From a virus: DNA of 29,499 nucleotides. Positions 10,212 to 28,357 of this stretch are shown here, in pieces. Where the stretch lies: the IMG/VR virus record IMGVR_UViG_3300030451_006341, positions 1 through 29,499 of that record. One strand, given 5' to 3'. Made by a program: the position numbers and the translations under genes. Below the pieces are notes generated by a model. The model searched no databases, was not told the origin of the DNA, and saw nothing but the letters and a program-made list of their open reading frames with translations. Within the stretch, counting starts at the first letter, position 1, and every line of letters starts with the position of its first letter.

Positions 10212-10622
10212 TCACTTCATTGCATTCCAAATTTGAGATGCCCCTCCAACAAGAGAGGATATATCAACACCTGAATCACCAGCATCACCAAGATCAACAG
10301 AGCCTGGCTTGTGTTGTGTTTGTGCTGGTGCTGGTGATGTGCCTTCAAACAAATCTACACCATTATAAGCGTCTTTGCCAATTGCGTCTAGCATACGTTT
10401 CTTGTGTTCTCTTAGTTTAACAGATTGTTTGTTTTTACGCTGAATGTCCCTATCAAGGTTTTCTTCAACAGGAGCGCGCTTTGTTTCAACAACAAGATTA
10501 TTTTGCATACCGTGTGCTACTTCAGATACAATATTAGACAATAAGCCTTCTTCTAATAACACTTCGTGTATACATTCTTTCACCAATGGTTTGATAGCCT
10601 TTTTCAAATCAGCTTTTTTCAT
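10212..10622 (-). CDS. Conserved prohead-region protein, possible head-core component
   Basis: This 136-residue protein starts MKKADLKKAIKPLVKECIHE followed by VLLEEGLLSNIV, an amphipathic helical N-terminus. A charged middle includes KLREHKKRMLDAIGKDAYNG and VDLFEGTSPAP, and the C-terminus is GVDISSLVGGASQIWNAMK. It overlaps the gp21 stop by 14 bases, with GAGG before the ATG, so it is translationally linked to the protease. Small core proteins (gp67, gp68) flank gp21 in T4, but I cannot show homology. The N-terminus carries L-L-E, a potential gp21 cleavage pattern. Confidence 0.7.
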   Translation of the reverse strand: MKKADLKKAIKPLVKECIHEVLLEEGLLSNIVSEVAHGMQNNLVVETKRAPVEENLDRDIQRKNKQSVKLREHKKRMLDAIGKDAYNGVDLFEGTSPAPAQTQHKPGSVDLGDAGDSGVDISSLVGGASQIWNAMK

Positions 10623-11217
10623 TTAAAACCTCGTTTAATAATCTGTTAATTCTGTCTGCTTTTGTAAATACTTTGTTTTGAAATTCTTTTGCTTCTTTCA
10701 TCATAAAAGCCCCAGGAGTTGATGGCTCAGAAACAAAATCAAAACAAATTAATTGAAAGTCATCTTCTACAACTGTGTTGCCTTGAGATTCAGAAACAGA
10801 ACCCATTCCACGAGAAGAAATACCAATACTTACACCAGCACTGACAAGTGATTGAAGTACTTGCCCAGAGGGAGTATCAAGAACTTTCGCCTTACCCATA
10901 ACATTTTTACCATCCCACCAAACATCAGTCATCATATGTGACGCGTTTCTAAGATTGATAACAGAATCATCAGGGTGATCTAGCTCTCCAAGAGCGCGGC
11001 GCTCTTTAACAAGTTTAGAATAATTTACCATTTCTCTTTTTAGTACATGTTCTGGATAAACTCTGCCGTTTCCATTTACAGTATCAGCTTTTTGAATTAT
11101 CCCAGTAAGCATCATACCACCATTCGATACAAAACGTTTTTCTTCTTCTGTAAGTAGATCTTGACAAACTCCACCATCGCAGAGTTCATAATACTCTCTA
11201 AGTAACTTCTGACCCAT
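10609..11217 (-). CDS. 21: Prohead protease, T4 gp21-like
   Basis: This is the serine protease that processes capsid and scaffold proteins inside the prohead. Among 202 residues the catalytic-type motifs are clear: GRVYPEHVLKREM at 51-63, GELDHPDD with His81, and GVSIGISSRGMGS with Ser134/Ser135, followed by FQLICFDFVSEPSTPGAFM. This is the S78/gp21 pattern, and the length is near T4 gp21. It is preceded by AAAGGA and followed by an overlapping small gene. T4 gp21 cuts after Glu in [I/L]-x-E, which matters for the many leader-bearing proteins in this window. Confidence 0.95.
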   Translation of the reverse strand: MGQKLLREYYELCDGGVCQDLLTEEEKRFVSNGGMMLTGIIQKADTVNGNGRVYPEHVLKREMVNYSKLVKERRALGELDHPDDSVINLRNASHMMTDVWWDGKNVMGKAKVLDTPSGQVLQSLVSAGVSIGISSRGMGSVSESQGNTVVEDDFQLICFDFVSEPSTPGAFMMKEAKEFQNKVFTKADRINRLLNEVLNEKS

Positions 11218-11592: not shown

Positions 11593-12204
11593 TTATTCTC
11601 CTAATGGTTCAATTTTAACTTTTCCAGAGTGTTCCCCAGACTGTATTCTAGCATCCATTACAGATTCAGCAGTAATGGTGCCTAATAGTTGAGATATTTT
11701 TGTGTTTGGGTCAACATCACCATTTACAGCATTTTCTATTTTGTCTTTCATAATTGAAAAAACTTGCTTTTCTGGCTCAGAAGGCCTGGTTATATTGCCA
11801 CCTTTGGTTTCAAGATCTCGCATAAATATTTGTAAATTATCGTTTAAATCAAAATATGAAGCTGCTGAGCCTGGTTTATATGTTCCATCTTCAATATCGG
11901 CAAATGCCATAATTGAGGCTTGCAGCATTTGCTCAACCACCTTTTCGGCAACAACCCCTGCCGCGGCGCCTGCTGCTACGCCAGCACCTGCAGTAGCAAC
12001 TCCAGTGGCAGCACCTAAGCCAACCCCCATAAGTTTGGCTACATATCCTCCATATTCGGCTGCAAACTTTTTCAGTGTACTTGGATCTTTTTCTTTAAAG
12101 TATTCAACAAGTTCTCCGATAGTCATTATTTCTTGAGGGGTTTTTTTTGTTATTCTTATTTCATTAACAACAAACTTATTCCAATTTTCTATTAAAGTTT
12201 TCAT
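11593..12204 (-). CDS. Capsid-targeting-like leader protein with Gly/Ala-rich hydrophobic segment
   Basis: This 203-residue protein begins MKTLIENWNKFVVNEI, the ENW-type leader shared with the products starting at 24057 and 20985. The leader resembles the T4 capsid-targeting peptide and contains LIE, an [I/L]-x-E site. Residues 58-86 form a long Gly/Ala hydrophobic stretch (LMGVGLGAATGVATAGAGVA continuing AAGAAAGVVAE), which could insert in a membrane. The rest is polar. No strong ribosome site is visible before the ATG, which follows the previous stop closely. Packaging in the head and ejection with DNA is an inference; no enzymatic domain is recognised. Confidence 0.7.
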   Translation of the reverse strand: MKTLIENWNKFVVNEIRITKKTPQEIMTIGELVEYFKEKDPSTLKKFAAEYGGYVAKLMGVGLGAATGVATAGAGVAAGAAAGVVAEKVVEQMLQASIMAFADIEDGTYKPGSAASYFDLNDNLQIFMRDLETKGGNITRPSEPEKQVFSIMKDKIENAVNGDVDPNTKISQLLGTITAESVMDARIQSGEHSGKVKIEPLGE

Positions 12205-12745: not shown

Positions 12746-13559
12746 CTGCAAATATTTCCTTTGTTAAGCTTTGAGTTTTAAGCACAGTAAGCAATACATT
12801 GTCATTAATCTTAGCTGTTGCAAACGAATTTAATTTTTCAATCACTTCTTCTAATTTTAATGACATGTCTTTATCTTCTTTAATTTCAGTAACTTCACGT
12901 GCATGTTCAAGTTTATTTTTCAATCTTGATATTTCATTATTTAAGTAAACTTTTAATTCAACGGAGTTATCAGTAAATGAAGAAATATAATGTGTAAGCA
13001 ATGTTTTTTGTTCTTCCAATAAATTAGTAGAATATTTTTCATTAAACTTTTTCACAAATGTTTGAACAACAACATTATCAACATGTTCTTCGTTTGAGAC
13101 ATTTTCTACCGCAGTCATGTATTCAACCATTTCATTTTCTAACATAACACGCTTTCGAGGTGTTGTTTTTATAGAAAATAACTGATCTATTGTGGCAAGT
13201 GTTTTATAATTTGGCACAAAGTTATTAAATATGTCTGAGTCTATCTGTTTATTAATATCATTAATCATTTGTGATTGGAGCTTAAACAAGCCAGTTGGAT
13301 CAATCATTCTTTTTTCAGCTGTTGCTGTTTCTAGTAGTCGGCGTGAATCTTTTTCGCTCAAACCACTCGCCTCATAAAGCGAACGATAACAATCTAAATC
13401 TTTGCTAAGTATACACGCTGGGTTAAAATACTTCTTGATGACGTTCACAACTTTATTTTTGTGTTCGTGATCTCCTTTTAAAACAGCAGCCGTGGCCTCT
13501 TTTATTAATGCCTCGTAAACAAAAGCAGTGTTTCTTTTTTTGTTATGCCTGTTCTTCAT
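12729..13559 (-). CDS. Conserved protein of unknown function following portal
   Basis: This 276-residue helical protein starts MKNRHNKKRNTAFVYEALIK. It is highly charged (Lys/Glu/Asn-rich) with likely coiled-coil segments around 205-245 (NEISRLKNKLEHAREVTEIK) and no membrane segment. The ATG at 13559 overlaps the portal gene by 17 bases with GGAG at seven bases, indicating translational coupling. The KRNTAFVYEAL opening is, to my recollection, recurrent in marine T4-like phages at this location. It occupies the interval where T4 has gp67/gp68 core genes, but I see no homology to those. Confidence 0.68.
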   Translation of the reverse strand: MKNRHNKKRNTAFVYEALIKEATAAVLKGDHEHKNKVVNVIKKYFNPACILSKDLDCYRSLYEASGLSEKDSRRLLETATAEKRMIDPTGLFKLQSQMINDINKQIDSDIFNNFVPNYKTLATIDQLFSIKTTPRKRVMLENEMVEYMTAVENVSNEEHVDNVVVQTFVKKFNEKYSTNLLEEQKTLLTHYISSFTDNSVELKVYLNNEISRLKNKLEHAREVTEIKEDKDMSLKLEEVIEKLNSFATAKINDNVLLTVLKTQSLTKEIFADGSNN

Positions 13560-15552
13560 CTTTTTGCTCCGTTAATACTTTTTTATTTTCCAAACTTTCT
13601 ATAATATTTTTAATAGAATTATTTAGTTCAAACAATTTTTGTTCTTCAACTTGCTCGTTCAACTTATAAATAGGCTCTTGCTCTTCGTAAATACCTTTTG
13701 CTATACTTGGTATACTATTGATTTCAGAGCCAGGAAATACATTTCTAATTGTTGAACTACTTTTTTCTGCGCTACGTTTAGCAGCATAGTTTCTAACACG
13801 AGGGCCCGAATCTTTTCTTCTGTCATTTTTGACAGGCGTATACGTACTTTTTTCATATGTTCGTTTATCGTTTCTAGAGCCTGGTGGGACTGCCAACAAT
13901 GGTGACTCATCGCCGCCACCTGCTGGTTCTCCACCAGCATCACCACCACCAAGATCTAAATCACCACCTGCATCACCTGCTGGGATTTCTGCTGGACCTC
14001 CTGCGTCATCACCGCCAAGATCTAAATCATCACCGCCGCCGCCTAGATCTAAATCACCACCTAAGCCGCCTGTTTCTCCAGCAGCTTGTGCTTCAGCGAC
14101 TGCTTGAAGTGATGCATCGTGCTTACGGTCGTAATACATTTCGCGCTGATTACGAATAAATTCTTCATGAGACATACCGAAGATATTTTCTGCAACCCAA
14201 CGACGAGAAAAGTATCCTTCCGTTGCTGAACCAGCGATATCAAACTTAGCTTTCCAGTGCTCAATCTCTTGGAGTTCAGCAATCTTGGATGGGTTGTTAA
14301 GAGCAAGCTTGAATGACAATAAATCGTCGCCGCGAAACCCAAGAGTATAAAGATGAATAATTCCAACTTTTTCAAGTTCTGCAATAATAACTCTTTGTAG
14401 TCTTTGAATTGTTCTTGCAAAACGAATATCTTTTTGCGCAAGTGTTGTTTTATCTTCTGAAGCGCCTTCACCCATAGCAAGATATGCTTGGGGGATTTTT
14501 AGCGCAGAAAAAAGTTTGTCGCGAAGGTATTTAATATCGTCAATGGCTGTAATGTTTTGTGCCCCTGCAAGTGATTGTATTTCTGTTTGCGAGCCTGCGC
14601 GTACTGGAATGAAATAATCTTCTTCGATTGACATCGGGTTGTAACGCAAGTCAATGCGGCCTGTGCTTGGATCGACGACGGAGTGTCTTTTAAGTTGAGT
14701 AACAATCTTTTCCATATATTGTTCAACTTCATTCGGAGGCACTGCACCAACATCAATCTTAAACACACGACGTTCTGAAGAGCGAACCACTCTGTATGCC
14801 ATCATTGCATCTTCCATAAGCGTCAATTGGCGCCAGATACGTCTGGCTGGTTCAAGAATTGAAGTACCGTATGGTTGATATTTATCGTTTCCTAAAACAC
14901 GAAAATGTGCAATTTGCCAGTTTTCAAATGTCATACCTGCTGAGTTCCACTGATACTGCACATAATTTGGGTTTGTAGCGTCTTGTCCTTCGAGCCTTTC
15001 AATTTCTTGAATTGGTAAAGTAATAACAGACTTAACACCAAATTTATCATCAATGTCCATATACAAGAAAAAATCACCATACTTGCACATTGTGCGAGAC
15101 CATCCAAATAAATTATATTGAATATTTAATATGCTATTATACAAAGTTTCTAAAACAGCTTTGATTTCTTCATTAGCACATCTGATATTTAACATTGGCT
15201 TAAGGTCAGAGTACGTTGTCATCTCATCAGCATATATATCAAGTGTTGAGGCAATTTCAGGCATGTATTCCATTTGATCAAAGTCCACATAACGCTCAGA
15301 ACGACGCTGGTTAGCAATTGCATTGGTAGCAATTTGATCAAGAGGGTTGTACAGTGTCTTCTTGAACTGCTGCCCTGATGCTGACTTAAACCTTGATGAA
15401 TATTTATCTAAGTGCTGCCTACGAATGCGGCGCCCTGATTGTGAGCGATAGTTTACAATTGGGCCTGAAAAAAGACGAGTTAGTCTTTTAAATAATTCTG
15501 ATTCTTCATTCGCTGGATTTTTGCCTTTTGGTCTAATTCTGTTGTCTGCCAT
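13543..15552 (-). CDS. 20: Portal vertex protein, T4 gp20-like
   Basis: This protein forms the dodecameric ring through which DNA enters and leaves the head. It has 669 residues. The family region is clear: RRSERYVDFDQMEYMPEIAS, YADEMTTYSD, EWK/LIGN-type central strands, RVFKIDVGAVPPNEVEQYME, and IDDIKYLRDKLFSALKIPQA with YLAMGEGASEDKTTLAQKDIRFAR. About residues 487-552 form a Gly/Asp-rich low-complexity insert with repeated GGDLDLGG units, unusual for portal. The C-terminal 100 residues are charged. The start at 15552 is preceded by AAGTGAGA. It directly follows the terminase gene with a nine-base gap. Confidence 0.96.
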   Translation of the reverse strand: MADNRIRPKGKNPANEESELFKRLTRLFSGPIVNYRSQSGRRIRRQHLDKYSSRFKSASGQQFKKTLYNPLDQIATNAIANQRRSERYVDFDQMEYMPEIASTLDIYADEMTTYSDLKPMLNIRCANEEIKAVLETLYNSILNIQYNLFGWSRTMCKYGDFFLYMDIDDKFGVKSVITLPIQEIERLEGQDATNPNYVQYQWNSAGMTFENWQIAHFRVLGNDKYQPYGTSILEPARRIWRQLTLMEDAMMAYRVVRSSERRVFKIDVGAVPPNEVEQYMEKIVTQLKRHSVVDPSTGRIDLRYNPMSIEEDYFIPVRAGSQTEIQSLAGAQNITAIDDIKYLRDKLFSALKIPQAYLAMGEGASEDKTTLAQKDIRFARTIQRLQRVIIAELEKVGIIHLYTLGFRGDDLLSFKLALNNPSKIAELQEIEHWKAKFDIAGSATEGYFSRRWVAENIFGMSHEEFIRNQREMYYDRKHDASLQAVAEAQAAGETGGLGGDLDLGGGGDDLDLGGDDAGGPAEIPAGDAGGDLDLGGGDAGGEPAGGGDESPLLAVPPGSRNDKRTYEKSTYTPVKNDRRKDSGPRVRNYAAKRSAEKSSSTIRNVFPGSEINSIPSIAKGIYEEQEPIYKLNEQVEEQKLFELNNSIKNIIESLENKKVLTEQKDEEQA
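13666..13673 (-). promoter_or_regulatory. CTATTTAT motif inside the end of the portal gene
   Basis: This is a further copy of the strand-biased CTATTTAT sequence, about 107 bases before the start at 13559 and inside coding sequence (GAGCCTATTTATAAG). It is listed for completeness of the motif set. As a promoter it is weaker than the intergenic copies. Confidence 0.2.
13900..14090 (-). repeat. Gly/Asp-rich coding repeats in portal
   Basis: Short imperfect repeats with the core ccaagatctaaatcaccacc (plus strand) recur at about 13949, 14020 and 14041. They encode GGDLDLGG units. They make a low-complexity acidic-glycine linker in the portal protein. Confidence 0.75.
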
Positions 15553-17144: not shown

Positions 17145-17698
17145 TAATCATTAGTAGGTTTTGGTCTGGTGTCGTTTGAAGGGCGCTTACCACCGTCGCC
17201 AGTCCAACCACCTTGGTCAATAAATTTTCTAAAACTATCTTCTGGCTTTGTGTCTGCATCTGCTGACACAGCCATAGCTTCATCAAGACCACCAACACGA
17301 TAATGAATTTTGGCAGTTACCCAAGAGCGAACTTTGGAAGAGTTTTCAACGCGAACATCGATCTCCCCTTCTTTTGTTAATGTTACAGATTCACCACGAA
17401 TTTTGCGATATTCCTTTTTAAGAAAAGAGGCTATATCAGCCATGCGCTGCTCAACATCAGATTCAAAACCAGAGGCATATACTTCTTTTAATTGAACTTC
17501 TGACATATATGACAAGCACATAATGTTACCATGAAACTTAACTCCGAAGCCATCCATAACGCGCTTATCAAGTATAGGGTCACCTTCCTCTCTTTGGAGC
17601 CCAGCCTTTAGGGGTTCTCCTTTATCATCATGAGCACCATCATAAGCATTCGCTGCTGCTTGTGATAATCCTTGAATTATTTCATATACTGTTGCCAT
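17144..17698 (-). CDS. Conserved protein immediately before terminase
   Basis: This 184-residue protein starts MATVYEIIQGLSQAAANAYD with AAGGA nine bases upstream. It contains GVKFHGNIMCLSYMSEVQLK, a helical segment DVEQRMADIASFLKKEYRKI, then beta-like VTLTKEGEIDVRVENSSKVR and SWVTAKIHYRV. The C-terminus is disordered and polar (GGWTGDGGKRPSNDTRPKPT). Its position just before gp17 is where T4 has the small terminase gp16, but its content does not look like the coiled-coil gp16, so I do not assign that function. It is expressed with terminase via the TAATG overlap. Confidence 0.65.
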   Translation of the reverse strand: MATVYEIIQGLSQAAANAYDGAHDDKGEPLKAGLQREEGDPILDKRVMDGFGVKFHGNIMCLSYMSEVQLKEVYASGFESDVEQRMADIASFLKKEYRKIRGESVTLTKEGEIDVRVENSSKVRSWVTAKIHYRVGGLDEAMAVSADADTKPEDSFRKFIDQGGWTGDGGKRPSNDTRPKPTND

Positions 17699-18023
17699 TA
17701 TTTTGATCCTTATTGTTATCGGGGGCGCCCTTAATTTGTTTTTGTAGTAATTTCAGCACTCTTTGTAGAAGGGGGCGATGTTGAACTAGATCAACTCCAG
17801 GCTCAGATGCTAATTTTGAAATAAAATCTTCTAATTGATCAACAAGACCTTGTTCAGTTGTTGTAAATTCTTCACCTTGGCCTTTAATTCTATCGCGAAC
17901 AGTTTGCTGTCTTTGTGATGTTGACATAGCCCTGTTTATCAACTTAGTTTCATCATCTTTTGATTCTAACATTTCAAATTCTTCTAAAATAATTTGTTTT
18001 AATTTATCTTTATTGATCTTCAT
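17682..18023 (-). CDS. Small protein with QLKQII-type capsid-targeting-like leader
   Basis: This 113-residue protein begins MKINKDKLKQIILEEFEMLE, one of five such leaders in the window, with ILE as a potential gp21 cut site. The body is helical and charged (STSQRQQTVRDRIKGQGEEF, LVDQLEDFISKLASEP, LLQRVLKLLQKQIKG) and ends in an Asn/Asp-rich tail. GGAG is six bases before the ATG, and the gene overlaps both neighbours by 14-17 bases. It could be an internal head protein; no enzymatic motif is seen. Confidence 0.68.
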   Translation of the reverse strand: MKINKDKLKQIILEEFEMLESKDDETKLINRAMSTSQRQQTVRDRIKGQGEEFTTTEQGLVDQLEDFISKLASEPGVDLVQHRPLLQRVLKLLQKQIKGAPDNNKDQNNGNSI

Positions 18024-19160: not shown

Positions 19161-19351
19161 GCTACCCCCTTGAGTTTAGCAATACCATCAATTACGGTTT
19201 GACCGCCAATATAGATAGCAGAGATAATGACCCAATCGCTCGAAGCTAAATCAGAAAACGCTAACAAGCCTGTTGCTGTTAGCCATACAAGAAACTTGCG
19301 TGAAATCATTTTTTCTACAAGGCGATCTAATTTGCCCTGAACGTATCTCAT
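19157..19351 (-). CDS. Small two-helix membrane protein, holin-like candidate
   Basis: This 64-residue protein starts MRYVQGKLDRLVEKMISRKF. The ATG at 19351 is in a TGATG overlap with the upstream stop, preferred over GTG at 19354. Two short hydrophobic segments, FLVWLTATGLLAFSD and WVIISAIYIGGQTVIDGIA, are separated by a small polar turn, and the N-terminus is basic and amphipathic. Size and topology suit a holin, and the next two genes look like a spanin pair. No endolysin gene is visible nearby. The assignment is by topology and context only. Confidence 0.5.
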   Translation of the reverse strand: MRYVQGKLDRLVEKMISRKFLVWLTATGLLAFSDLASSDWVIISAIYIGGQTVIDGIAKLKGVA

Positions 19352-20184
19352 CACTTTTTACCTCGATTTTTCTTTGCAATATTAGTTGCTGCTCCATACA
19401 TTACATTTTCAGCATCTTTACCATATCTTTTCTTAAAATCTTTTTTATTCTTTTTCATGCCTTTTACAATATCTTCTTTTTCATCTTCTTCTGCATCAGT
19501 AAGTTCTCTTTCTGCTACACGACGATATGGGACATCAGTTGGATCTACTGTAGGTCTTACGGCTACAGAGTCACACTGCGAGCCTTTGCCACCAGAGATT
19601 TGTATGTCACTAATCACTCTTTTCATTCCAAAAGCTATTAAATCTGCATCGTGCCCCATTGTTTCTAATTCTTGCATATAACATGTTAACAACTCTTGTA
19701 AATCACCTTTTATGATATCAATAGGTCTTTGTTCACCAGCTTGGTAAACTCGTTCGTTTACTGGATCAAAATCTGGATCGGCTCCAGAAAGATAGTTTAA
19801 AACTGTGTTGATGTAATCGTGCGCTTTTGTAATTTTTGATTCAACCCACTCTTCGTGATCGTCACTTTCATCTACCATTGCTTGTAGTTCTTGCACCATT
19901 TGAGATAAATTATTCAATTGTCTGACAGCCATAGAACCTTCACCACCATGGCCTTCGTCTAATGACCCTTTTTTATTGTGGGGAGTGGCAAACCTACCAA
20001 GAGCCTTTTGCATCGAACCAACAGTAAAAGGATCTTCGCCCGTAACAGCAGAAGTTAAGTAATCAATGCTTACATCTAAACCTTCAATACTATCAGTCAA
20101 CTTGTTAATTGCTTTCATCATTGCTGGATCGGTTCCAATTTCTTCGACAATAATTTGTTTAAGCTGGCTTTTGGTAATTTTCAT
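19351..20184 (-). CDS. QLKQII-leader protein with KKNKKDFKKRYGKDA tail module
   Basis: I set the start at the ATG at 20184 (MKITKSQLKQIIVEEIGTDP), which has AAGGA at eight bases and begins the leader; an ATG ten codons earlier adds only a nonconserved extension inside the previous gene. The 277-residue product has IVE as a possible gp21 site. A helical acidic body follows (QLNNLSQMVQELQAMVDESD, LQELLTCYMQELETMGHDAD). The basic C-terminal module is VKGMKKNKKDFKKRYGKDAE followed by NVMYGAATNIAKK. That tail motif recurs, as I recall, in marine phage proteins, with unknown function. A packaged internal protein is the favoured inference. Confidence 0.7.
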   Translation of the reverse strand: MKITKSQLKQIIVEEIGTDPAMMKAINKLTDSIEGLDVSIDYLTSAVTGEDPFTVGSMQKALGRFATPHNKKGSLDEGHGGEGSMAVRQLNNLSQMVQELQAMVDESDDHEEWVESKITKAHDYINTVLNYLSGADPDFDPVNERVYQAGEQRPIDIIKGDLQELLTCYMQELETMGHDADLIAFGMKRVISDIQISGGKGSQCDSVAVRPTVDPTDVPYRRVAERELTDAEEDEKEDIVKGMKKNKKDFKKRYGKDAENVMYGAATNIAKKNRGKK

Positions 20185-20185
20185 A

Positions 20186-20485
20186 TCACAATCCTTTCCA
20201 GATATAATTAGCATTTAAACGCGGGTGTTCTGACTTGAAATCTGAAATAGCTTCCTTTACACTATCCTCGTTGGCATCTCCTTGATACCAATCAACGAAC
20301 AATTCAACTATTTTAAATTTTTCAATATTGCTTTGTTTAACCTTTGAGTTTTTTAAAAGTTCAACAAATATCTGTTCTACTGAAGACTTTTCAACAATTG
20401 CAGCACCTTCACCTGCAGGTTGCTCTGGCTTTTGTTGTGGTTCTTCTTTGTCAAACCAGTCTTTAATATCGTTCCATAAACTCAT
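20186..20485 (-). CDS. Small acidic protein of unknown function
   Basis: This 99-residue protein starts MSLWNDIKDWFDKEEPQQKP, followed by a Pro/Gln/Glu-rich linker. A helical domain follows: VEQIFVELLKNSKVKQSNIE and FKIVELFVDWYQGDANEDSV, ending NANYIWKGL. The start overlaps the upstream stop by ATGA. No leader of either type and no known motif is present. It sits between two leader-bearing genes and is presumably co-expressed with them. Confidence 0.6.
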   Translation of the reverse strand: MSLWNDIKDWFDKEEPQQKPEQPAGEGAAIVEKSSVEQIFVELLKNSKVKQSNIEKFKIVELFVDWYQGDANEDSVKEAISDFKSEHPRLNANYIWKGL

Positions 20486-20985
20486 AATTCTTTAAAATCC
20501 TTTAGCGCTTTGTGTAAAGCTTGAATAACACCATTGTTAAGGTGAGAATATTGTGGAGGATCTTTCATGGCATCCTCGGCAGCTTCTTGCAACATGCGTG
20601 CTAATTTTCTTTCGACTTGCTGAACAGTCATAATTCCATAGCCAGGAATTTGAAGATCTGGACTACGTGATTGGCCGCGGCTATAATCTCTAAGTTCTTC
20701 GTTCATTTCTTGTCGGCTTGCTAAATCTTGATACATTTCTTCTTCATCCATATAGCCCATGGTTTCGCCATTTTGAAGAGTGACAACAGCGATATGTTTG
20801 CCATCTGTAGTTTTAGCAAACATCACTTGCACATTAAATTTATCAGCTAAATCTTCCATAGCTTCTTTTTCAGCCATTTCAGGCTCTACATAATCTTCAC
20901 CAGTATCGATATCAGCAACAGCGCGACCTGGCTCGTATTCTGCTTCGTTTAAAGACTTACGCCAATTTTCAAATAGTTTTTTCAT
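20482..20985 (-). CDS. ENW-leader protein of unknown function
   Basis: I chose the ATG at 20985, which gives MKKLFENWRKSLNEAEYEPG, the ENW leader shared with the genes at 12204 and 24057. It lies just after the upstream stop at 21005, whereas the longer reading frame back to 21069 would run into the previous gene. LFE is an [I/L]-x-E site. The 167-residue product is acidic, with EPEMAEKEAMEDLADKFNVQ, VMFAKTTDGKHIAVVTLQNG and a C-terminal helical part (MTVQQVERKLARMLQEAAED). The ribosome site is weak (TGGAT). Packaging in the capsid is inferred from the leader. Confidence 0.65.
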   Translation of the reverse strand: MKKLFENWRKSLNEAEYEPGRAVADIDTGEDYVEPEMAEKEAMEDLADKFNVQVMFAKTTDGKHIAVVTLQNGETMGYMDEEEMYQDLASRQEMNEELRDYSRGQSRSPDLQIPGYGIMTVQQVERKLARMLQEAAEDAMKDPPQYSHLNNGVIQALHKALKDFKEL

Positions 20986-21004: not shown

Positions 21005-21307
21005 TTATGCTGAGACCGAAACGCCTTTAGCGATTGTTTTTCCTTTACATTTAGTTGTAAAACCGTCATACAGTTTTTTAATAAACTCGGCTTGTTGATC
21101 CAAGTCTTCGCGAGTTATCATACCAGAACCTAAGTACGCTTCAAGCGATGCGTATCCCTGTCTAGCTTTCCCTATCTCGGCTTCAAGCTTGCCACAATTA
21201 ACTTCAGCAGATGCGCTTGTAGTATAATCGTCAAAGTCATCTTCACCTAAATAAGATTGTATTTCTTCTTTGATAAGTTCTTTAAGTTGTTGTTTGGTTA
21301 ATTTCAT
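21005..21307 (-). CDS. Small QLKELI-leader protein
   Basis: Start at 21307 (MKLTKQQLKELIKEEIQSYL), supported by AGGAGA seven bases upstream; a further in-frame ATG nine codons earlier overlaps the tubulin-like gene. The 100-residue product has IKE as a possible protease site and an acidic linker (GEDDFDDYTTSASAEV). A helical domain with two Cys residues follows (VNCGKLEAEIGKARQGYASL; KLYDGFTTKCKGKTIAKG). No known fold is recognised. It is probably a member of the internal-protein set. Confidence 0.65.
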   Translation of the reverse strand: MKLTKQQLKELIKEEIQSYLGEDDFDDYTTSASAEVNCGKLEAEIGKARQGYASLEAYLGSGMITREDLDQQAEFIKKLYDGFTTKCKGKTIAKGVSVSA

Positions 21308-21317
21308 TTTAAATCTC

Positions 21318-22457
21318 CTATGTTGCCAACCCATTCATACTTAGTATCGCAATCAATCCAGGCACATTCTTTCTGACATAAACGCCAGAGAAAAGTGTCT
21401 CGCATCGACCGCCGACATAAGCGATTGCCGACTCAATATTTTTGCTGATTTTTGGGTCAGCCACCATCTCTTCTGACACAACCAACACCAACGAGCCCGC
21501 AGCGGCCTTACCTTTCGGCGGGGGGCATGCTGACCTGTTCATACAGTTATGGAGAATCACCGATCCAAGCTTAGCAGTGTTTGGGTCTTTTATCATGGTT
21601 GAGCCCATAAAGGCCCTGCCGTTATTACCCAAACATGTTTCCAAATCTTTGCTATCAAAAGATTGAATCGGTGAATCCTCAGTGGAGAGTTTTAACACTT
21701 GGGCTAACGACTTAGCAAATTGTGTGTTTGCGACAGGATACATGCCAAGCATGCCAATTCTGCCACGAAGTAAACGAGTGGAGCGCTCGTTGTCTAAAAC
21801 AATATGCGGATGCTTAGCAACATCATTTGCTAGTGTCAACGCATTACGAGCGATTGTAGGATTAAGATTTTCTTGTGCTGTTGGCCATGAGACTATATAA
21901 ATGACCTTGCCACTTGACTGCACAGAGCGCATGTAACGCTCAAAGACAGGATGCAAAGCGGCAACAGAACTACCTGTCCCACCACCACCGCCAGCAAGGA
22001 CGAATAACCAATCAACTTTACCGAGTTTGATGCGGAGAGCATCTTCAACAATTGCACCATTTTGACTTAAAACCTCTTTTCCATATTCAGTGTTCTTGCC
22101 GATTCCATCAGAATCGGGTATAAGGACAACGTGGTCCTCTTCGACATTCTTTGGAATGTCTTTGCCTGTTGTGTTGACAAGCAACGTTTTGTTAAAACCA
22201 AGCTCTATAAAAGCATTAGCCATTTTGTTGCCTCCACCGCCGACGCCAACAAAGCCCACATTTATCGAAGAAGGAGCGGTGTTTTCTGGGAGTAAATCTT
22301 CATCAGAGTATTCCATCTGTAATCCGAAATCCTCGACCATTCCGAAATCTTCTGCTGCGACTTCTTCATGATAGTGGTCTTTCTCCTGATTGAAGGAGGG
22401 TGGTGGCTCTGCGGGAGGCAGAAAATCAAATTCGTTGTTATCGTTATCACCTGACAT
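21318..22457 (-). CDS. FtsZ/tubulin-like GTPase
   Basis: Start at 22457 (MSGDNDNNEFDFLPPAEPPP), with AAGGA at eight bases. The 379-residue product has an acidic, Pro-rich, probably disordered N-terminus (1-64) and then an FtsZ-type fold. INVGFVGVGGGGNKMANAFI at 65-84 is the first nucleotide loop, and VLAGGGGGTGSSVAA at 153-167 is the tubulin GGGTGS signature. HIVLDNERSTRLL is at 218-230. FDSKDLETCLGNNGRAFMGS at 267-286 aligns with the FtsZ T7 loop DFADVxTVM...GxAMMGS and keeps the two catalytic-type aspartates (268, 271). A C-terminal domain follows, without an obvious FtsZ-tail peptide. It could form filaments that position DNA or capsids, or interfere with host division; this is inference. 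Confidence 0.88.
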   Translation of the reverse strand: MSGDNDNNEFDFLPPAEPPPSFNQEKDHYHEEVAAEDFGMVEDFGLQMEYSDEDLLPENTAPSSINVGFVGVGGGGNKMANAFIELGFNKTLLVNTTGKDIPKNVEEDHVVLIPDSDGIGKNTEYGKEVLSQNGAIVEDALRIKLGKVDWLFVLAGGGGGTGSSVAALHPVFERYMRSVQSSGKVIYIVSWPTAQENLNPTIARNALTLANDVAKHPHIVLDNERSTRLLRGRIGMLGMYPVANTQFAKSLAQVLKLSTEDSPIQSFDSKDLETCLGNNGRAFMGSTMIKDPNTAKLGSVILHNCMNRSACPPPKGKAAAGSLVLVVSEEMVADPKISKNIESAIAYVGGRCETLFSGVYVRKNVPGLIAILSMNGLAT

Positions 22458-22476
22458 ATTGTAATCCTTAATACTG

Positions 22477-23088
22477 TTATTGACCAAATCTACCAGTCAG
22501 CCAATCTCGCCTAAGTTTTTGTGCGATATCTCCAATATAAATTGCGTTATCTACACTTAAAAACGGCTCATCAGAATCAACTCCAGGCGCATTGTTTTGG
22601 GCTTCAGCATACTCTGCAATCTCTTCAAGTTTCTCTATAATTTGCAAAGCTTGAAACTGAACTTTTTTAAGGCCATCGGGGTCTTTTGTTGTTACCATTA
22701 CATTTGAATTATTCTCAATTTTTGGACGACCAGTATAGCTTTGTAATTTTTCAGCCTCTTTCGCCAACACATTGTGTATTACAGCTAAATCTCTACTGTA
22801 GGGATCATAAAAGCCCATTGCCAGTTCATTTCTTCCTATTCGCTCTTTTGGGTCAATGACAAAAACACCACCCATTTTATTAATAAGTTGTCTAAATTCA
22901 GAAATAAGCTTCGTGTACATTTCGTCTGCGTCTTGTGCTCTACGCTGACCACCGTATTTGTCGACGTCACCTGCTGCAGCATCTACGTCAGCCATGGAAA
23001 AAGCCATTTCGTCCATGGCCATTTCGCTCATTGTATTTTTAAGTTCTTCAAGAACAATTTGTTTAAGTTGTGTTTTTGTAATTTTCAT
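22477..23088 (-). CDS. QLKQIV-leader protein of unknown function
   Basis: This 203-residue protein starts MKITKTQLKQIVLEELKNTM, nearly identical in its first 15 residues to the product starting at 20184. The leader has VLE/LEE, close to the [I/L]-x-E cleavage pattern. A Met/Glu/Asp-rich linker follows, then a folded-looking domain (MYTKLISEFRQLINKMGGVF, DPKERIGRNELAMGFYDPYS, LQALQIIEKLEEIAEY) ending IGDIAQKLRRDWLTGRFGQ. AAGGA lies ten bases before the ATG. No enzymatic motif is recognised. It lies between the ParB-like leader gene and the tubulin-like gene. Confidence 0.68.
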   Translation of the reverse strand: MKITKTQLKQIVLEELKNTMSEMAMDEMAFSMADVDAAAGDVDKYGGQRRAQDADEMYTKLISEFRQLINKMGGVFVIDPKERIGRNELAMGFYDPYSRDLAVIHNVLAKEAEKLQSYTGRPKIENNSNVMVTTKDPDGLKKVQFQALQIIEKLEEIAEYAEAQNNAPGVDSDEPFLSVDNAIYIGDIAQKLRRDWLTGRFGQ

Positions 23089-23100
23089 AATATTATTTCC

Positions 23101-24057
23101 TTATTCTGCGGCCTTTTTCTTATCAGTCGCGAATGGCGATCTAAAATCTACTTGTCCCTTCTCAAGCGGTTTAAGGGCGGCGGGTGTATCACCACCAGCG
23201 CTAACCTTAGAGCCCGCGGGGGCATCTGTTTGAGGCATTGGTTCTCTGGAGCTTGCACCTGATACTGGTTTATTGTTAGACTGCATTAGATCGATGTTTC
23301 TTTCGTAGATACCTAAAAGTCTCTGTGCTACTTCTTGTGCTCTTTTTTCTGATCTGCCACCAGCTTGGTCAGTAGGATCGCCACCAAGGCCACCTTTACC
23401 TGTAAGGAGCCCTAATTTAATATATTCTGGCACAAGTTTCGGATTTTCGTTTATAATTTTATAAACCTGTTGTGTTAAAGTTTTTTGATCAATTGTAAAT
23501 AAATTTATACCGCCGCCTTGATTAGAGGGAACCTCGCCTGCATACGCCTTGATTGACGCTTGCATTAGTTTAAGGGCATTGAGTGGGCTTACAGGTAACT
23601 TAATATTAAACGCATACATTTCCGCGTTCGGGTTTACACAAAAAAGCGATGACCATCGATGATGACCATCAAGAACAAATTTTCCATTAAGAACAATAAT
23701 CGCATCATTTCCAGGTGGGCCTACTTTAAATGGACCATTGGATTTTAAGTAAGTCATAAACACTTGTGGCTTTTTTAAAGCAAAAGGAATAGATTTATCA
23801 AATACAACTTCTGCTTGTGTTGGTCTTAAATCAGCACATTTCACTGTTACGGGCTCAATAGAAACTGTGTCATCGCCTTCTTTGCCATCTTTGGCGCCAG
23901 CCAATACAGTTTGTATTATATCTTTTCTATTAGACTGCATTGCTTTTACAAACTGTGGTAGCGACATTTTAAGGACTTGAGCCGATGTAACGCCCCCTGC
24001 AGATACTTCTTCTTGTTCGTTTACAAATTTATTCCAATTCTCTAGTATTAATTTCAT
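23101..24057 (-). CDS. ENW-leader protein with ParB/sulfiredoxin-like domain
   Basis: This 318-residue protein begins MKLILENWNKFVNEQEEVSA, an ENW-type leader with ILE as a possible gp21 site. Residues 66-150 resemble the ParB/Srx fold: VSIEPVTVKCADLRPTQAEV, then IIVLNGKFVLDGHHRWSSLF with the DGHHRW box at 130-135 (compare the ParB GxxR nucleotide-binding box). The C-terminal third has GLLTGKGGLGGDPTDQAGGR, a helical stretch and a Pro/Ser/Gly-rich tail. The ATG overlaps the upstream stop as TAATG. Modern ParB-like domains can bind CTP, or act as nucleases or kinases; which applies here is unknown. Head packaging is inferred. Confidence 0.72.
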   Translation of the reverse strand: MKLILENWNKFVNEQEEVSAGGVTSAQVLKMSLPQFVKAMQSNRKDIIQTVLAGAKDGKEGDDTVSIEPVTVKCADLRPTQAEVVFDKSIPFALKKPQVFMTYLKSNGPFKVGPPGNDAIIVLNGKFVLDGHHRWSSLFCVNPNAEMYAFNIKLPVSPLNALKLMQASIKAYAGEVPSNQGGGINLFTIDQKTLTQQVYKIINENPKLVPEYIKLGLLTGKGGLGGDPTDQAGGRSEKRAQEVAQRLLGIYERNIDLMQSNNKPVSGASSREPMPQTDAPAGSKVSAGGDTPAALKPLEKGQVDFRSPFATDKKKAAE

Positions 24058-27000
24058 TATTGATTTACCCTTGCGTAGCCTTGTTTCTTTTCAATTACAA
24101 TTTGCATGTCAACACAATCTTTGAGCGAATCAAGGTGTGAGATCAGCAAAACGTTCTTAAAATACACTTTAATTAGTTCCAATATTCGAATAAAACCCGA
24201 CATATTATCTTCGTCTAGTGCAGTTCCAGGCTCGTCAAGGATAAAAATATCACCAGTAGGCAACGAAGAGACACCAAGAAGGGCTAATCGGATTGCCATG
24301 GCAGACAATGATTTTTCTGCACCCGACGCCATTTCAATAGGGCGCTCTTCATACTTGGGGTGCTTAATGAAAATATCAAATTTATTTCCTGTGGCTTCAA
24401 AAAATACTTCGAAATCAACAATGTTAGCAAGAACTTTTGCAATCTCTTCGTTAATTACTGGTATCTTTTTCTTAATGACGTCGTATGCGATACCATTAGG
24501 GTGCATGCATTGCATATACAGATCATAGGCAGCAAATTCACGCTGTAGATCTTGATACTCTTGCTTTTGTTCTCGCAGGTTTTCTACCTTTTGTTCATAT
24601 GTTCCAACAAGCTTAATTGTTTCAAGAACGTTCTCTTCACAAATGCCAATTTGTGATTGCTTGGTCTTGATACTTCTTGTGATTGATTTCTGCTCTGCGA
24701 TTAGTTTTTCAAGATTTTCAATTACATCTTTGTTGTCTTCATACTCGTTAATTTGTTCAGTCACAGTCTTTAAAGCAAATTGTGTTTTTGCCTTGAGAGT
24801 ATTATTTTTCTCTCGCGACAACTTAAGACTTGCAATGTTGTTTTCATGTGTTTGTATGCTGTCGCGCATAACCTGATAATGTTCAATTTGTTGTGCCACT
24901 TCACTTGCGTTTAGCGCTGCGAGCGAAAGTGATGCTTGGCTAAGCTGATTTTGGTGTTGCTCTTTTGTTGCAGCAGCTACGTTGGCGTCTTTAACAAACG
25001 GATTTTCACAACAATAGTGACAATTAGGATCATATTCGTGGTCCTCAAGCATCTTTATTTTTTTGTTAATGCTTGCAAGTTTTTGCTGCATTTGATTTAT
25101 GTCAGCATTGAGAGCATCAATCGCCTGCTGATCACTTTGCAGCTTCTCATAATCAACAAGAACCAGCGCTTCCTTTAATTCTTTAACAGCATGACTTTTG
25201 TTTGTAATACTATCGGTTTGTTTTTTAATTTTATTTGCCAAATCGACGACTTGATGTGCTTTGTCTTGCTGTTGATCAAGTAGCTTGTGAATATCAATAA
25301 ACTCAGCTGGAATGTTATCTATTTGATTTTTAATCGCCACATGTTTTTGAGAAAGCATTGCTAGTTCATTTTTTAGCAATGAGCATGCAGCTTTATTTTG
25401 TTCTGCAGATACCCTATAGTCTGACAAGCTTACCAAAGCTGCTTCAATTTCTTCATCAAAGTTTTTGTCTTCTAGTCTTTTAATGGCCCCTTTAAGGTCT
25501 ACAGAGTCTTCTTTTGCTAATTTAAACTTGCGCTCAAACTGCTCAAGATCTAAAAACTTGGCTATAATTTCTTTACGTCGAGTTGACCCCTCGTCAATAA
25601 AAGCCAACGCACCGTGTTGTGATGACAGTGAAGATACAGAAAAATCTTCAAGAGTACCAAGTTGTCGTCTAATATTTGCATCGGTTAAAGTGCGTGTAAG
25701 GCCGTTTAATGATTCAACGGTGTCCATTACAGGATTATACACTTCAAAATTAAGTTCTGTTTTTGCTTCAAGAGTTTCTTCGCCTTTCAATCTCTTGATA
25801 TACTTCTTAGCTGAGCGTTCAACAGTGTAAATCTTTTCACCAATTTGTATGCGCACTTTGCCACGGCAATCTTCTTTGTTTTGATTGATAACGTTAAGGT
25901 TTTTACGTTCATTTTTTGACGTAGAATTAAACAGTGTCCAAAGCACACCATCAATAATCGACGATTTACCCGAGAAGTTTTTACCAAAGATGCCAATGAT
26001 ACCATCTAAATCTTCAAAATTAACTTTATTGCTGTCACCATAATTGAAAAGGTTATCAAACTCAAAATCAACAAGCTTCCAATTAATATTTCTTGATACA
26101 TCTTCGTTGTCCTCAATAACTTTATTGTAACGCTTGTTTAATTCATAAACCTTTTCTAGTGTTTTATTCTCGACTTCATATGCTACAAGATATTCATCTA
26201 TAAGTTCTTCTTGTACATCAATATCTCGTAGATTTTCTGTGCGTAATCCATCGGTCAATGCATCTACAGAGCCTCGCTCGCCTGATGCTCGATTAAGGAA
26301 CGAAATTGTTTCTGGTTTAAATCTATGCTTTGCGATATCCACCGCCCGCTTCATCACATCAAGCGGAAGATTGTTATTGCTAACGAGCCGCAGACGAGCA
26401 CCAAACGGAATAGATATATTTCTGGGCATTCGTCCCTTTTGTGTGAGTTCGATTGTAATGAACGGCTTGGGGTTTGTAAGGCCGACATGTCTAGTGCTCC
26501 ATATATTTTTATCTTTAATGTTCCAAATTAAATAACCTTTATCGTTGCTCTCGCCATGGTTTTGTTGTACAAGAGAACCAGGGTATTTTGCTCGACCTTC
26601 TTTGTCAACTTTCTGATCAGTCTTGTGGATATCACCAAGCATAGCATAGTCATACTTCTCAAGTTCATCAAGAGAAATATCACCATGCGTCATCATCCAA
26701 CCACTATCTGTGACTGAGCCAACAACAGAACCATGATATAAGGCAATGTTAACACGATCTTCTGGCAAATCTTTTTGCCAGTTTTCTGGATCCACAATAG
26801 ATAAAACATGCAAATCGATACCATCTGCTACCTCCACCACTGATGCATATTTATGAAAATGTATATTGGGGTGATCAAGGTACTCTACGATTGGTGAGAT
26901 AGCGTCTAAACGTCCACTATTCTTAAGGTTCATGTCGTGGTTACCAAGTATCATATGATATGGAGCAATATCGGCAAGACCGACAAATAACTCACTCATC

Positions 27001-27179
27001 ATTTTAATTGCTTCTGGTGACATATCCAACTTAGTATGGAATGTGTCGCCAGTGTTCACAATAATATCTGGCTTTTCGTCACGTAGTGACTGATATAATT
27101 CTTCAAATACTACTTTGTATTCTTTATGATAACGTAATTTTCGGATATGGATATCCGATACATGTGCAATTTTAATCAC
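24057..27179 (-). CDS. 47-46: Fused gp47-gp46 (SbcD-SbcC/Mre11-Rad50-like) recombination nuclease
   Basis: This single 1040-residue chain combines both subunits of the recombination exonuclease. The N-terminal metallophosphoesterase has HVSDIHI (Asp9, His11), NTGDTF (Asp45), GNHDMN (80-84), YHG (His149) and GDIHK (182-186). The ATPase follows, with GIFGKNFSGKSS at about 393-404 (Walker A), a coiled coil with a zinc-hook CHYC (Cys720, Cys723), signature ASGAEKSLS at about 953 and FILDEPGTALDED at about 981-993 (Walker B and D-loop). T4 encodes gp47 and gp46 as separate genes totalling about 900 residues. The start is GTG with AGGAG six bases upstream. A sigma70-type promoter lies about 190 bases upstream. 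Confidence 0.95.
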   Translation of the reverse strand: MIKIAHVSDIHIRKLRYHKEYKVVFEELYQSLRDEKPDIIVNTGDTFHTKLDMSPEAIKMMSELFVGLADIAPYHMILGNHDMNLKNSGRLDAISPIVEYLDHPNIHFHKYASVVEVADGIDLHVLSIVDPENWQKDLPEDRVNIALYHGSVVGSVTDSGWMMTHGDISLDELEKYDYAMLGDIHKTDQKVDKEGRAKYPGSLVQQNHGESNDKGYLIWNIKDKNIWSTRHVGLTNPKPFITIELTQKGRMPRNISIPFGARLRLVSNNNLPLDVMKRAVDIAKHRFKPETISFLNRASGERGSVDALTDGLRTENLRDIDVQEELIDEYLVAYEVENKTLEKVYELNKRYNKVIEDNEDVSRNINWKLVDFEFDNLFNYGDSNKVNFEDLDGIIGIFGKNFSGKSSIIDGVLWTLFNSTSKNERKNLNVINQNKEDCRGKVRIQIGEKIYTVERSAKKYIKRLKGEETLEAKTELNFEVYNPVMDTVESLNGLTRTLTDANIRRQLGTLEDFSVSSLSSQHGALAFIDEGSTRRKEIIAKFLDLEQFERKFKLAKEDSVDLKGAIKRLEDKNFDEEIEAALVSLSDYRVSAEQNKAACSLLKNELAMLSQKHVAIKNQIDNIPAEFIDIHKLLDQQQDKAHQVVDLANKIKKQTDSITNKSHAVKELKEALVLVDYEKLQSDQQAIDALNADINQMQQKLASINKKIKMLEDHEYDPNCHYCCENPFVKDANVAAATKEQHQNQLSQASLSLAALNASEVAQQIEHYQVMRDSIQTHENNIASLKLSREKNNTLKAKTQFALKTVTEQINEYEDNKDVIENLEKLIAEQKSITRSIKTKQSQIGICEENVLETIKLVGTYEQKVENLREQKQEYQDLQREFAAYDLYMQCMHPNGIAYDVIKKKIPVINEEIAKVLANIVDFEVFFEATGNKFDIFIKHPKYEERPIEMASGAEKSLSAMAIRLALLGVSSLPTGDIFILDEPGTALDEDNMSGFIRILELIKVYFKNVLLISHLDSLKDCVDMQIVIEKKQGYARVNQ

Positions 27180-27397: not shown

Positions 27398-28357
27398 TTA
27401 GCGTGTTTGTAATGGTCGACCAATCCTATACATTGTATCTTTAACAAATTTGTTGAACCCAGCTTCATCTTGTACACCAAGTGCTTGGTATAGTTCTCCA
27501 CGGCCTTCTGGGTTATCTATATGGTAGTCCATCAGTTCAATTGTTTTTTCTTCCATTAAATCAGCGTATACAGTGTACGCCACTGTCCAATCAGGTGGTA
27601 AAATTTGTGAACCGTCTTCTGCTACTTTGAAGTTTTGGTTAGGATTACCAGTGCCGCCAGACCACTTACCTACGTCACCATACACCATGTTTTTAAGAAG
27701 AGGTAATTCCGTCATTGGATCTTTTGCAACTCTGTCTTTTAGTGCGTTATAATAATCTCCAGCTTTGGCCCCTGCTAGTGGCAGCACGGTATCAACATCA
27801 ATCTGGCTAGCTGGGACCATCTTATATTTGTAAATCCAAACAGAACTTGACACAGGCGCATCGTCAAGCGCAGGCTCACTTAAATCATACTGGCCCCAAA
27901 GCGCTTTGCTTTTTTCAAATCGATCCATACCATGAAATTTTTCATCATCCATACCAGAACCAAAAACATCTGCAAAACCTAATTCGTCGTCTTGTACTTG
28001 TAATTCAATATTATCTTGATTGGAAGCACTATCTCCACTACCCGCCAGGTATGCACCAGTCATGCCGCCGCCCCAAATAGACGCTACTAGTGCTGCAGGT
28101 ATCGCAAGACGCTTAGCAACTCTAGCTACAGCTTCTGCATTATCACCAGCTTTAACAACTAAGTTGCGTATTTTCTCTTTCATATCCTCAGTTAACATTT
28201 CTTCGTTTAACTTTTTCTTGGATGTAAGAGCTAAAATTGCTTTAATAACTTTATCATCGAGCGGAACAGTCTCGCCTCGATGTGGTTTAAGAAAGTTTTC
28301 CATTAAGGCAATTTCTTCAAATATAATATTTAATAATTGTTGTTCAGTAAGTTGCAT
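27398..28357 (-). CDS. Leader protein with membrane segment, unknown function
   Basis: This 319-residue protein begins MQLTEQQLLNIIFEEIALME, a divergent member of the QLKQII leader set with IFE as a possible gp21 site. A helical region runs to about residue 80 (EDMKEKIRNLVVKAGDNAEA). A hydrophobic segment follows at about 85-107 (LAIPAALVASIWGGGMTGAY). The large remaining domain is acidic and Trp/Tyr-containing (GVQDEAGFNKFVKDTMYRIG near the end). No ribosome site precedes the ATG, and a CTATTTAT motif lies only three bases upstream, so initiation is unusual. It may be a packaged, membrane-interacting protein. Confidence 0.68.
   Translation of the reverse strand: MQLTEQQLLNIIFEEIALMENFLKPHRGETVPLDDKVIKAILALTSKKKLNEEMLTEDMKEKIRNLVVKAGDNAEAVARVAKRLAIPAALVASIWGGGMTGAYLAGSGDSASNQDNIELQVQDDELGFADVFGSGMDDEKFHGMDRFEKSKALWGQYDLSEPALDDAPVSSSVWIYKYKMVPASQIDVDTVLPLAGAKAGDYYNALKDRVAKDPMTELPLLKNMVYGDVGKWSGGTGNPNQNFKVAEDGSQILPPDWTVAYTVYADLMEEKTIELMDYHIDNPEGRGELYQALGVQDEAGFNKFVKDTMYRIGRPLQTR

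Follow-up and report, generated by a model that had tools for sequence, protein, structure and literature searches.

Phage T4 delivers its internal proteins IPI–IPIII and the Alt enzyme into the host together with its DNA, and each of them carries a short N-terminal peptide and a site for the gp21-type protease. T4 gp21 cleaves its substrates after L/I-x-E, and the ten N-terminal residues of IPIII, its CTS, are enough for packaging (PMC9026906). The injected T4 proteins Ip1–3 inhibit GmrSD, the GmrS part of which is a ParB_n domain (PMC12373910). In phage P1, DarB is packaged by an N-terminal signal of 30 residues and DdrB is a head protein (PMC9024508), the latter being linked to antirestriction. 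ParB/Srx domains in packaged polyvalent proteins, with P1 DdrB as the prototype, have already been described (Iyer et al., 2017; PMC5512222). A DarB-like protein of the BcepIL02 gp70 type, gp69 of phage JC1, was found in virions with 51 peptides (PMC9144972). Dickeya phage LIMEstone1 encodes ORF101 (CCD57662.1), annotated as a ‘confirmed structural protein’; row 102 of its virion mass-spectrometry table (17.31 kDa, 35.57% coverage, 5 peptides; PMC3296691) appears to be this ORF, since its calculated mass is 17,302 Da and 53 of 149 residues amount to 35.57%. The first-pass annotation knew of no described system of the kind discussed here, yet P1 DdrB, the Bcep22-type DarB-like proteins and LIMEstone1 ORF101 precede it.

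The window, by which we mean the whole analysed stretch of 29,499 nucleotides, is part of a virus record of 114,207 bases, which was read in pieces. The gene of interest occupies positions 23101–24057; this and all other features of the window described below lie on the minus strand. It is a real ORF, as originally described, with an ATG start and 318 codons for a protein with a single recognisable domain. The protein would follow the same logic as T4 IPI–IPIII and Alt, but we found no relation to them in sequence or fold, and its leader, MKLILENWNKFVNE, differs from that of ipIII (MKTYQEFIAE). With LIMEstone1 ORF101 and its counterpart in Salmonella phage dinky_61, the short form of Ackermannviridae, it shares a homologous ParB/Srx core and an RxxMPQ element. 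In contrast to the window protein, this short form has 149 aa, carries RxxMPQ at its N-terminus and DGSHR in place of DGHHRW, and lacks the ENW leader; the mass-spectrometric evidence for presence in virions concerns such relatives. The same domain family also occurs in BcepIL02 gp70, a Bcep22-type DarB-like antirestriction protein (GIPRAEMPQV...LKPTQAEF...DGHHQ). DarB-like proteins are, however, giant and multidomain, with the domain as one segment, and a DarB-like polyvalent identity was rejected for a protein of 318 aa with one recognisable domain. P1 DdrB belongs to the same ParB/Srx superfamily but has an ESGNGR motif and no RxxMPQ; it matches PF18763 (ddrB-ParB) at 2.1e-39, whereas neither the window protein nor the aligned family members do, and membership of the DdrB family was rejected.

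The fold assignment was based on structure prediction and profile comparison. The AlphaFold2 model of the window protein reached a pLDDT of 88.9 and a pTM of 0.85. Its best PDB structure matches were 2hwj and human sulfiredoxin with weak E-values (0.07–1.5), while in the viral structure library BFVD a full-length entry named ‘ParB/Sulfiredoxin’ ranked first (E 5.8e-19, TM 0.71/0.77), and numerous other Foldseek matches there bore the same name. For a short sister protein, pf16 gp103 (pLDDT 88.8), the first 21 PDB matches were all of ParB, Noc, Srx type or 2hwj, mostly with probabilities of 0.8–1.0, after which the probability collapsed to 0.02. The core of the window protein (residues 63–180; 23518–23871) matched the profile of the short family at E 2.5e-16. 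Given the structure matches of both models and this profile–profile match, we consider the predicted ParB/Srx fold secure. The earlier impression that the strands around DGHHRW resemble ParB/Srx was thus borne out by both models, and the proposed prediction against ParB and Srx returned a confident domain of this type rather than an unrelated fold. Pfam PF08857 (ParBc_2) was matched by 16 of 56 aligned members; the window protein itself had no Pfam match at E≤1. At the sequence level the single protein gave no match in the PDB, a six-sequence profile matched designed helical proteins only, and the calmodulin matches of the 56-sequence profile arose from the KDGxxxD region and were judged to be due to chance.

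The DGHHRW motif named in the first-pass annotation is present at residues 130–135 (23653–23670), and D130–W135 is invariant in 56 of 56 relatives, as are L77, Q81 and L162. Nearly invariant are P79, S89, N254, R271, M274, P275 and Q276. Two conserved elements that had gone unmentioned thus accompany the motif, namely the LxPTQ strand (LRPTQ, residues 77–81; 23815–23829) and RxxMPQ (residues 271–276). Conservation of the pocket residues D130–W135, Q81, R271, M274 and P275 is 98–100% across the long family. DGHHRW contains GxxR (G131-H132-H133-R134, invariant in 56/56), described as a P-motif for nucleotide phosphates; the tested ParB-fold proteins require its Arg to bind NTP (PMC12704722). The motif predicts that the window protein binds NTP.

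Named ParB/Srx proteins did not account for the window protein. The catalytic Cys of sulfiredoxin lies within an FGGCHR motif. As DGHHRW is without Cys in 56 of 56 members, the protein is not a sulfiredoxin. A canonical chromosome or plasmid ParB was likewise rejected, as the HTH domain that follows the CTPase fold and the C-terminal dimerisation domain were found by Pfam neither in the window protein nor among the 56 members. The archaeal free-serine kinase SerK, exemplified by Pyrococcus furiosus PF0380, has an identical DGHHRW in a ParB/Srx fold, but in a PDB profile search it showed no significant overall similarity and shared only this motif. The SerK model NF053625 was matched by 2 of 56 members, at best with E 0.0062, but the window protein did not match it, and nothing in these comparisons pointed to serine kinase activity.

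When viral contigs were scanned with an alignment of six sequences, at least 313 proved to carry the long form. Microcystis phage Mel-JY01 is a cultured carrier of this form (WWT39393.1). The scan of 84,980 prokaryote genomes yielded only 16 loci, 15 of them in metagenome-assembled contigs, and the family is therefore essentially viral. Members are mostly annotated as hypothetical proteins; 54 of 56 match phrog_2859 (unknown function), and PADLOC gave no match for the window protein. The short form is present in 457 cultured-phage records, Ackermannviridae among them, and also makes up part of DarB-like proteins in Burkholderia phages. The two forms differ in the position of RxxMPQ, which precedes LxPTQ at the N-terminus of short members and follows a helical insert in the window protein, as part of an RxxMPQ...LxxGxVxF element (residues 266–304; 23146–23262). 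Placing residues 266–300 before the core raised the profile score against the short family from 97 to 120. Seventeen other donor segments, used as controls, gave 97–101, and three with RxxMPQ gave 110–115. A simple circular rotation did not improve the match. Because only direct joining of residues 266–300 to the core raised the score, RxxMPQ is best described as a putative relocated element and not as a proven circular permutation.

The window encodes a head module of T4 type. It comprises a gp23-like major capsid protein (1–1470, cut by the left end of the record; PF07068, E 2e-48), a gp21-like prohead core protease (Peptidase_S77; 10609–11217; PF03420, E 7.5e-34) and a gp20-like portal protein (13543–15552; PF07230, E 4.8e-80). 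A probable scaffold protein ending in QDRMKRLAGIK is encoded beside the capsid gene (1504–2589), and its homologues in relatives are located between the protease or ParB/Srx gene and the capsid gene.

The ENW leader of the window protein, MKLILENWNKFVNE, spans residues 1–14 (24016–24057) and includes an ILE cleavage-type site at residues 4–6. Its presence at the N-terminus had been claimed before, and we confirmed that such leaders recur more often than expected by chance. In the 114-kb record five proteins bear the ENW leader (the ParB/Srx protein and four unrelated ones), and six carry a second type, QLKxIIxEE. All are N-terminal and the motifs are absent elsewhere in the proteome, while shuffled N-termini gave on average 0.03 (ENW) and 0.003 (QLK-type) occurrences, with a maximum of 1 of each. 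The mature parts of the leader-bearing proteins show no similarity to one another. In the window, ENW leaders head two unrelated proteins, MKTLIENWNKFVVNE (11593–12204) and MKKLFENWRKSLNE (20482–20985, with the start inside a listed ORF). The second type heads the product of the next gene downstream, MKITKTQLKQIVLEEL (22477–23088), and a further protein, MQLTEQQLLNIIFEEI (27398–28357). As MKITKxQLKQIIxEE it is present on these two and on other unrelated window proteins (17682–18023, 19351–20184 and 21005–21307). In one relative (L017) a QLK-like sequence, LSKEQLAKIVKEELAQLKK, lies at the C-terminus of the ParB/Srx protein. The ENW leader also heads unrelated proteins in other contigs, such as a P-loop-like protein (GPPSVGKSR) of a 136-kb contig (L007, 6001–6909). 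Within the same record as the window it is found on a HAD-phosphatase-like protein (FDFDETIAF; record positions 109143–109751, or 544–1152 on the minus strand of piece L100), which is another candidate packaged enzyme. We found no description of the ENW leader in the openly available literature.

The leaders of the ParB/Srx relatives differ (ENW, QLK, LQKLAG and others) and yet retain an [LI]xE site, which is ILE6 in the window protein. Within the first 40 residues the site was present in 59 of 61 non-redundant relatives vs. 183 of 360 other ORFs (51%) of the same loci; the Fisher p of about 1e-13 is nominal, since the relatives share ancestry. Of internal windows, 20% contained the site. Four short relatives (L152, L158, L161 and L162) bear T4-like leaders (MKTFREFLSE, MKTFRSFINE, MKPFKEFITE, MKNFRQFITE) comparable to MKTYQEFIAE, a CTS that is absent from the window protein. 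The ENW leader differs in sequence from the T4 CTS; the case for a packaging role, which we consider very probable, is built on analogy and on how the leader is distributed.

Another terminal sequence is common to these proteins and the scaffold. A degenerate pattern, RxxKLAGI, occurred 22 times in the ORFs of the relatives' loci, 17 times at a C-terminal end, five times at an N-terminal end and never internally, and its carriers there were only scaffold proteins or ParB/Srx family members. Scaffolds of the window and of five further loci (L020, L058, L060, L061 and L079) end in R(M/W)xxLAGIxK, and many ParB/Srx relatives bear a tag of the scaffold type at one end or the other. The tag may be a docking or cleavage signal common to both.

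Gene order further connects the family with the head. Of 60 representatives, 14 carry the gene on the strand of the S77 protease gene, with its start no more than 12 nt from the protease end or overlapping that end; in several of these, where the contig is long enough, scaffold and capsid genes follow downstream. This is the T4 20-21-22-23 order with the ParB/Srx gene inserted. We expected an S77 protease in every record, but found a match in 13 of the 20 records searched; the seven without one include some that may be fragments and four of more than 100 kb.

Leader modularity, the [LI]xE statistics, synteny, the scaffold-shared tags and the virion-detected relative support the original proposal of a head-packaging leader. 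The most probable reading, to which we assign a probability of roughly 0.6, is that the window protein is head-core cargo which loses its leader, is retained in the virion and is injected to serve as a nucleotide-binding early factor. According to it, the leader would target the protein to the assembling prohead core, where the S77 (gp21-type) protease would remove it, most likely after ILE6. Once mature, the ParB/Srx-fold protein would stay alongside the DNA in the virion and enter the host when infection begins. There, the pocket formed by LxPTQ, DGHHRW with GxxR, and RxxMPQ would bind nucleotide, and the protein would exert an early effect, most likely by countering restriction or modifying the host. 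Host entry and action are plausible by analogy with the T4 internal proteins, P1 DarB and DdrB and LIMEstone1 ORF101.

The main rival, unlikely in our estimate, is a role in head assembly. The protein would then belong to the prohead core or regulate it, for instance by sensing NTP or a ligand as a partner of the protease or scaffold, and any presence in virions would be residual. The position directly after the protease and before the scaffold and capsid genes in many relatives suits such a role, as does the tag common to the scaffold. The window copy, however, lies outside the head operon, like many others, which counts against an assembly role and also against packaging. Short relatives are located elsewhere in genomes and inside DarB-like proteins, LIMEstone1 ORF101 is found in mature virions, and leaders of the T4 IP type on short members are typical of injected, non-essential cargo. 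Against packaging, in turn, stand the short form of the virion-confirmed relative, with no recognised leader, and the four long records without an S77 match.

It is very unlikely that the protein is packaged as a mere binder, with neither nucleotide binding nor catalysis, for example by imitating the ParB_n (GmrS-type) restriction subunits of the host. In the short family the Arg of the P-motif is not always retained (DGHHQ, DGHHT), and ParB_n mimicry is an attractive though speculative idea in view of the inhibition of GmrSD by injected Ip1–3. The near-complete pocket conservation of the long family nevertheless fits ligand binding or catalysis better. An unpackaged intracellular ParB/Srx enzyme or regulator (NTPase, nuclease or kinase) with the leader as a general oligomerisation or interaction peptide would agree with the many non-virion roles of ParB/Srx proteins (PMC12704722) and with the adjoining replication/recombination-type gene, but is very unlikely in the face of the leader statistics, protease synteny, scaffold-shared tags and virion-detected relative.

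The window copy is flanked by an SbcCD-like gene on one side and, one gene further on the other, by a tubulin-like gene; copies in L002, L004 and L081 have the same setting. The former is a fusion of an SbcD-like phosphoesterase and an SbcC-like ATPase in a single ORF of 1040 aa (24057–27179). The tubulin/FtsZ-family protein (21318–22487; PF00091, 5.4e-9) is 93–94% identical in L002 and L004, an unusually strong conservation vs. about 60–70% for most neighbouring genes. Elsewhere in the record, a long run of genes at 73–93 kb (L098, L099) has the look of nucleotide-sugar and glycan synthesis (epimerase-like, glycosyltransferase-like), an impression from translated termini only.

ParB/Srx domains in packaged proteins are already known; the window protein belongs to a different family with unusually clear head-targeting tags, and it is this family, its widespread tags and its putative relocated element that are new here. 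As a broader and doubtful conjecture, a large group of uncultivated phages with T4-type heads may load many kinds of unrelated cargo by means of a few interchangeable terminal tags, some of them common to the scaffold, the ParB/Srx protein being a recurrent cargo and an injected NTP-dependent counter to ParB_n-based (GmrSD-like) or other NTP-driven restriction. The occurrence of the short form in cultured phages makes the packaging question testable now. If the packaging reading is true, the tags would serve as a rule for recognising further packaged proteins of uncultivated phages from sequence, and in many of the long-form and short-form carriers the protein would be virion cargo, possibly acting at the first moment of infection.
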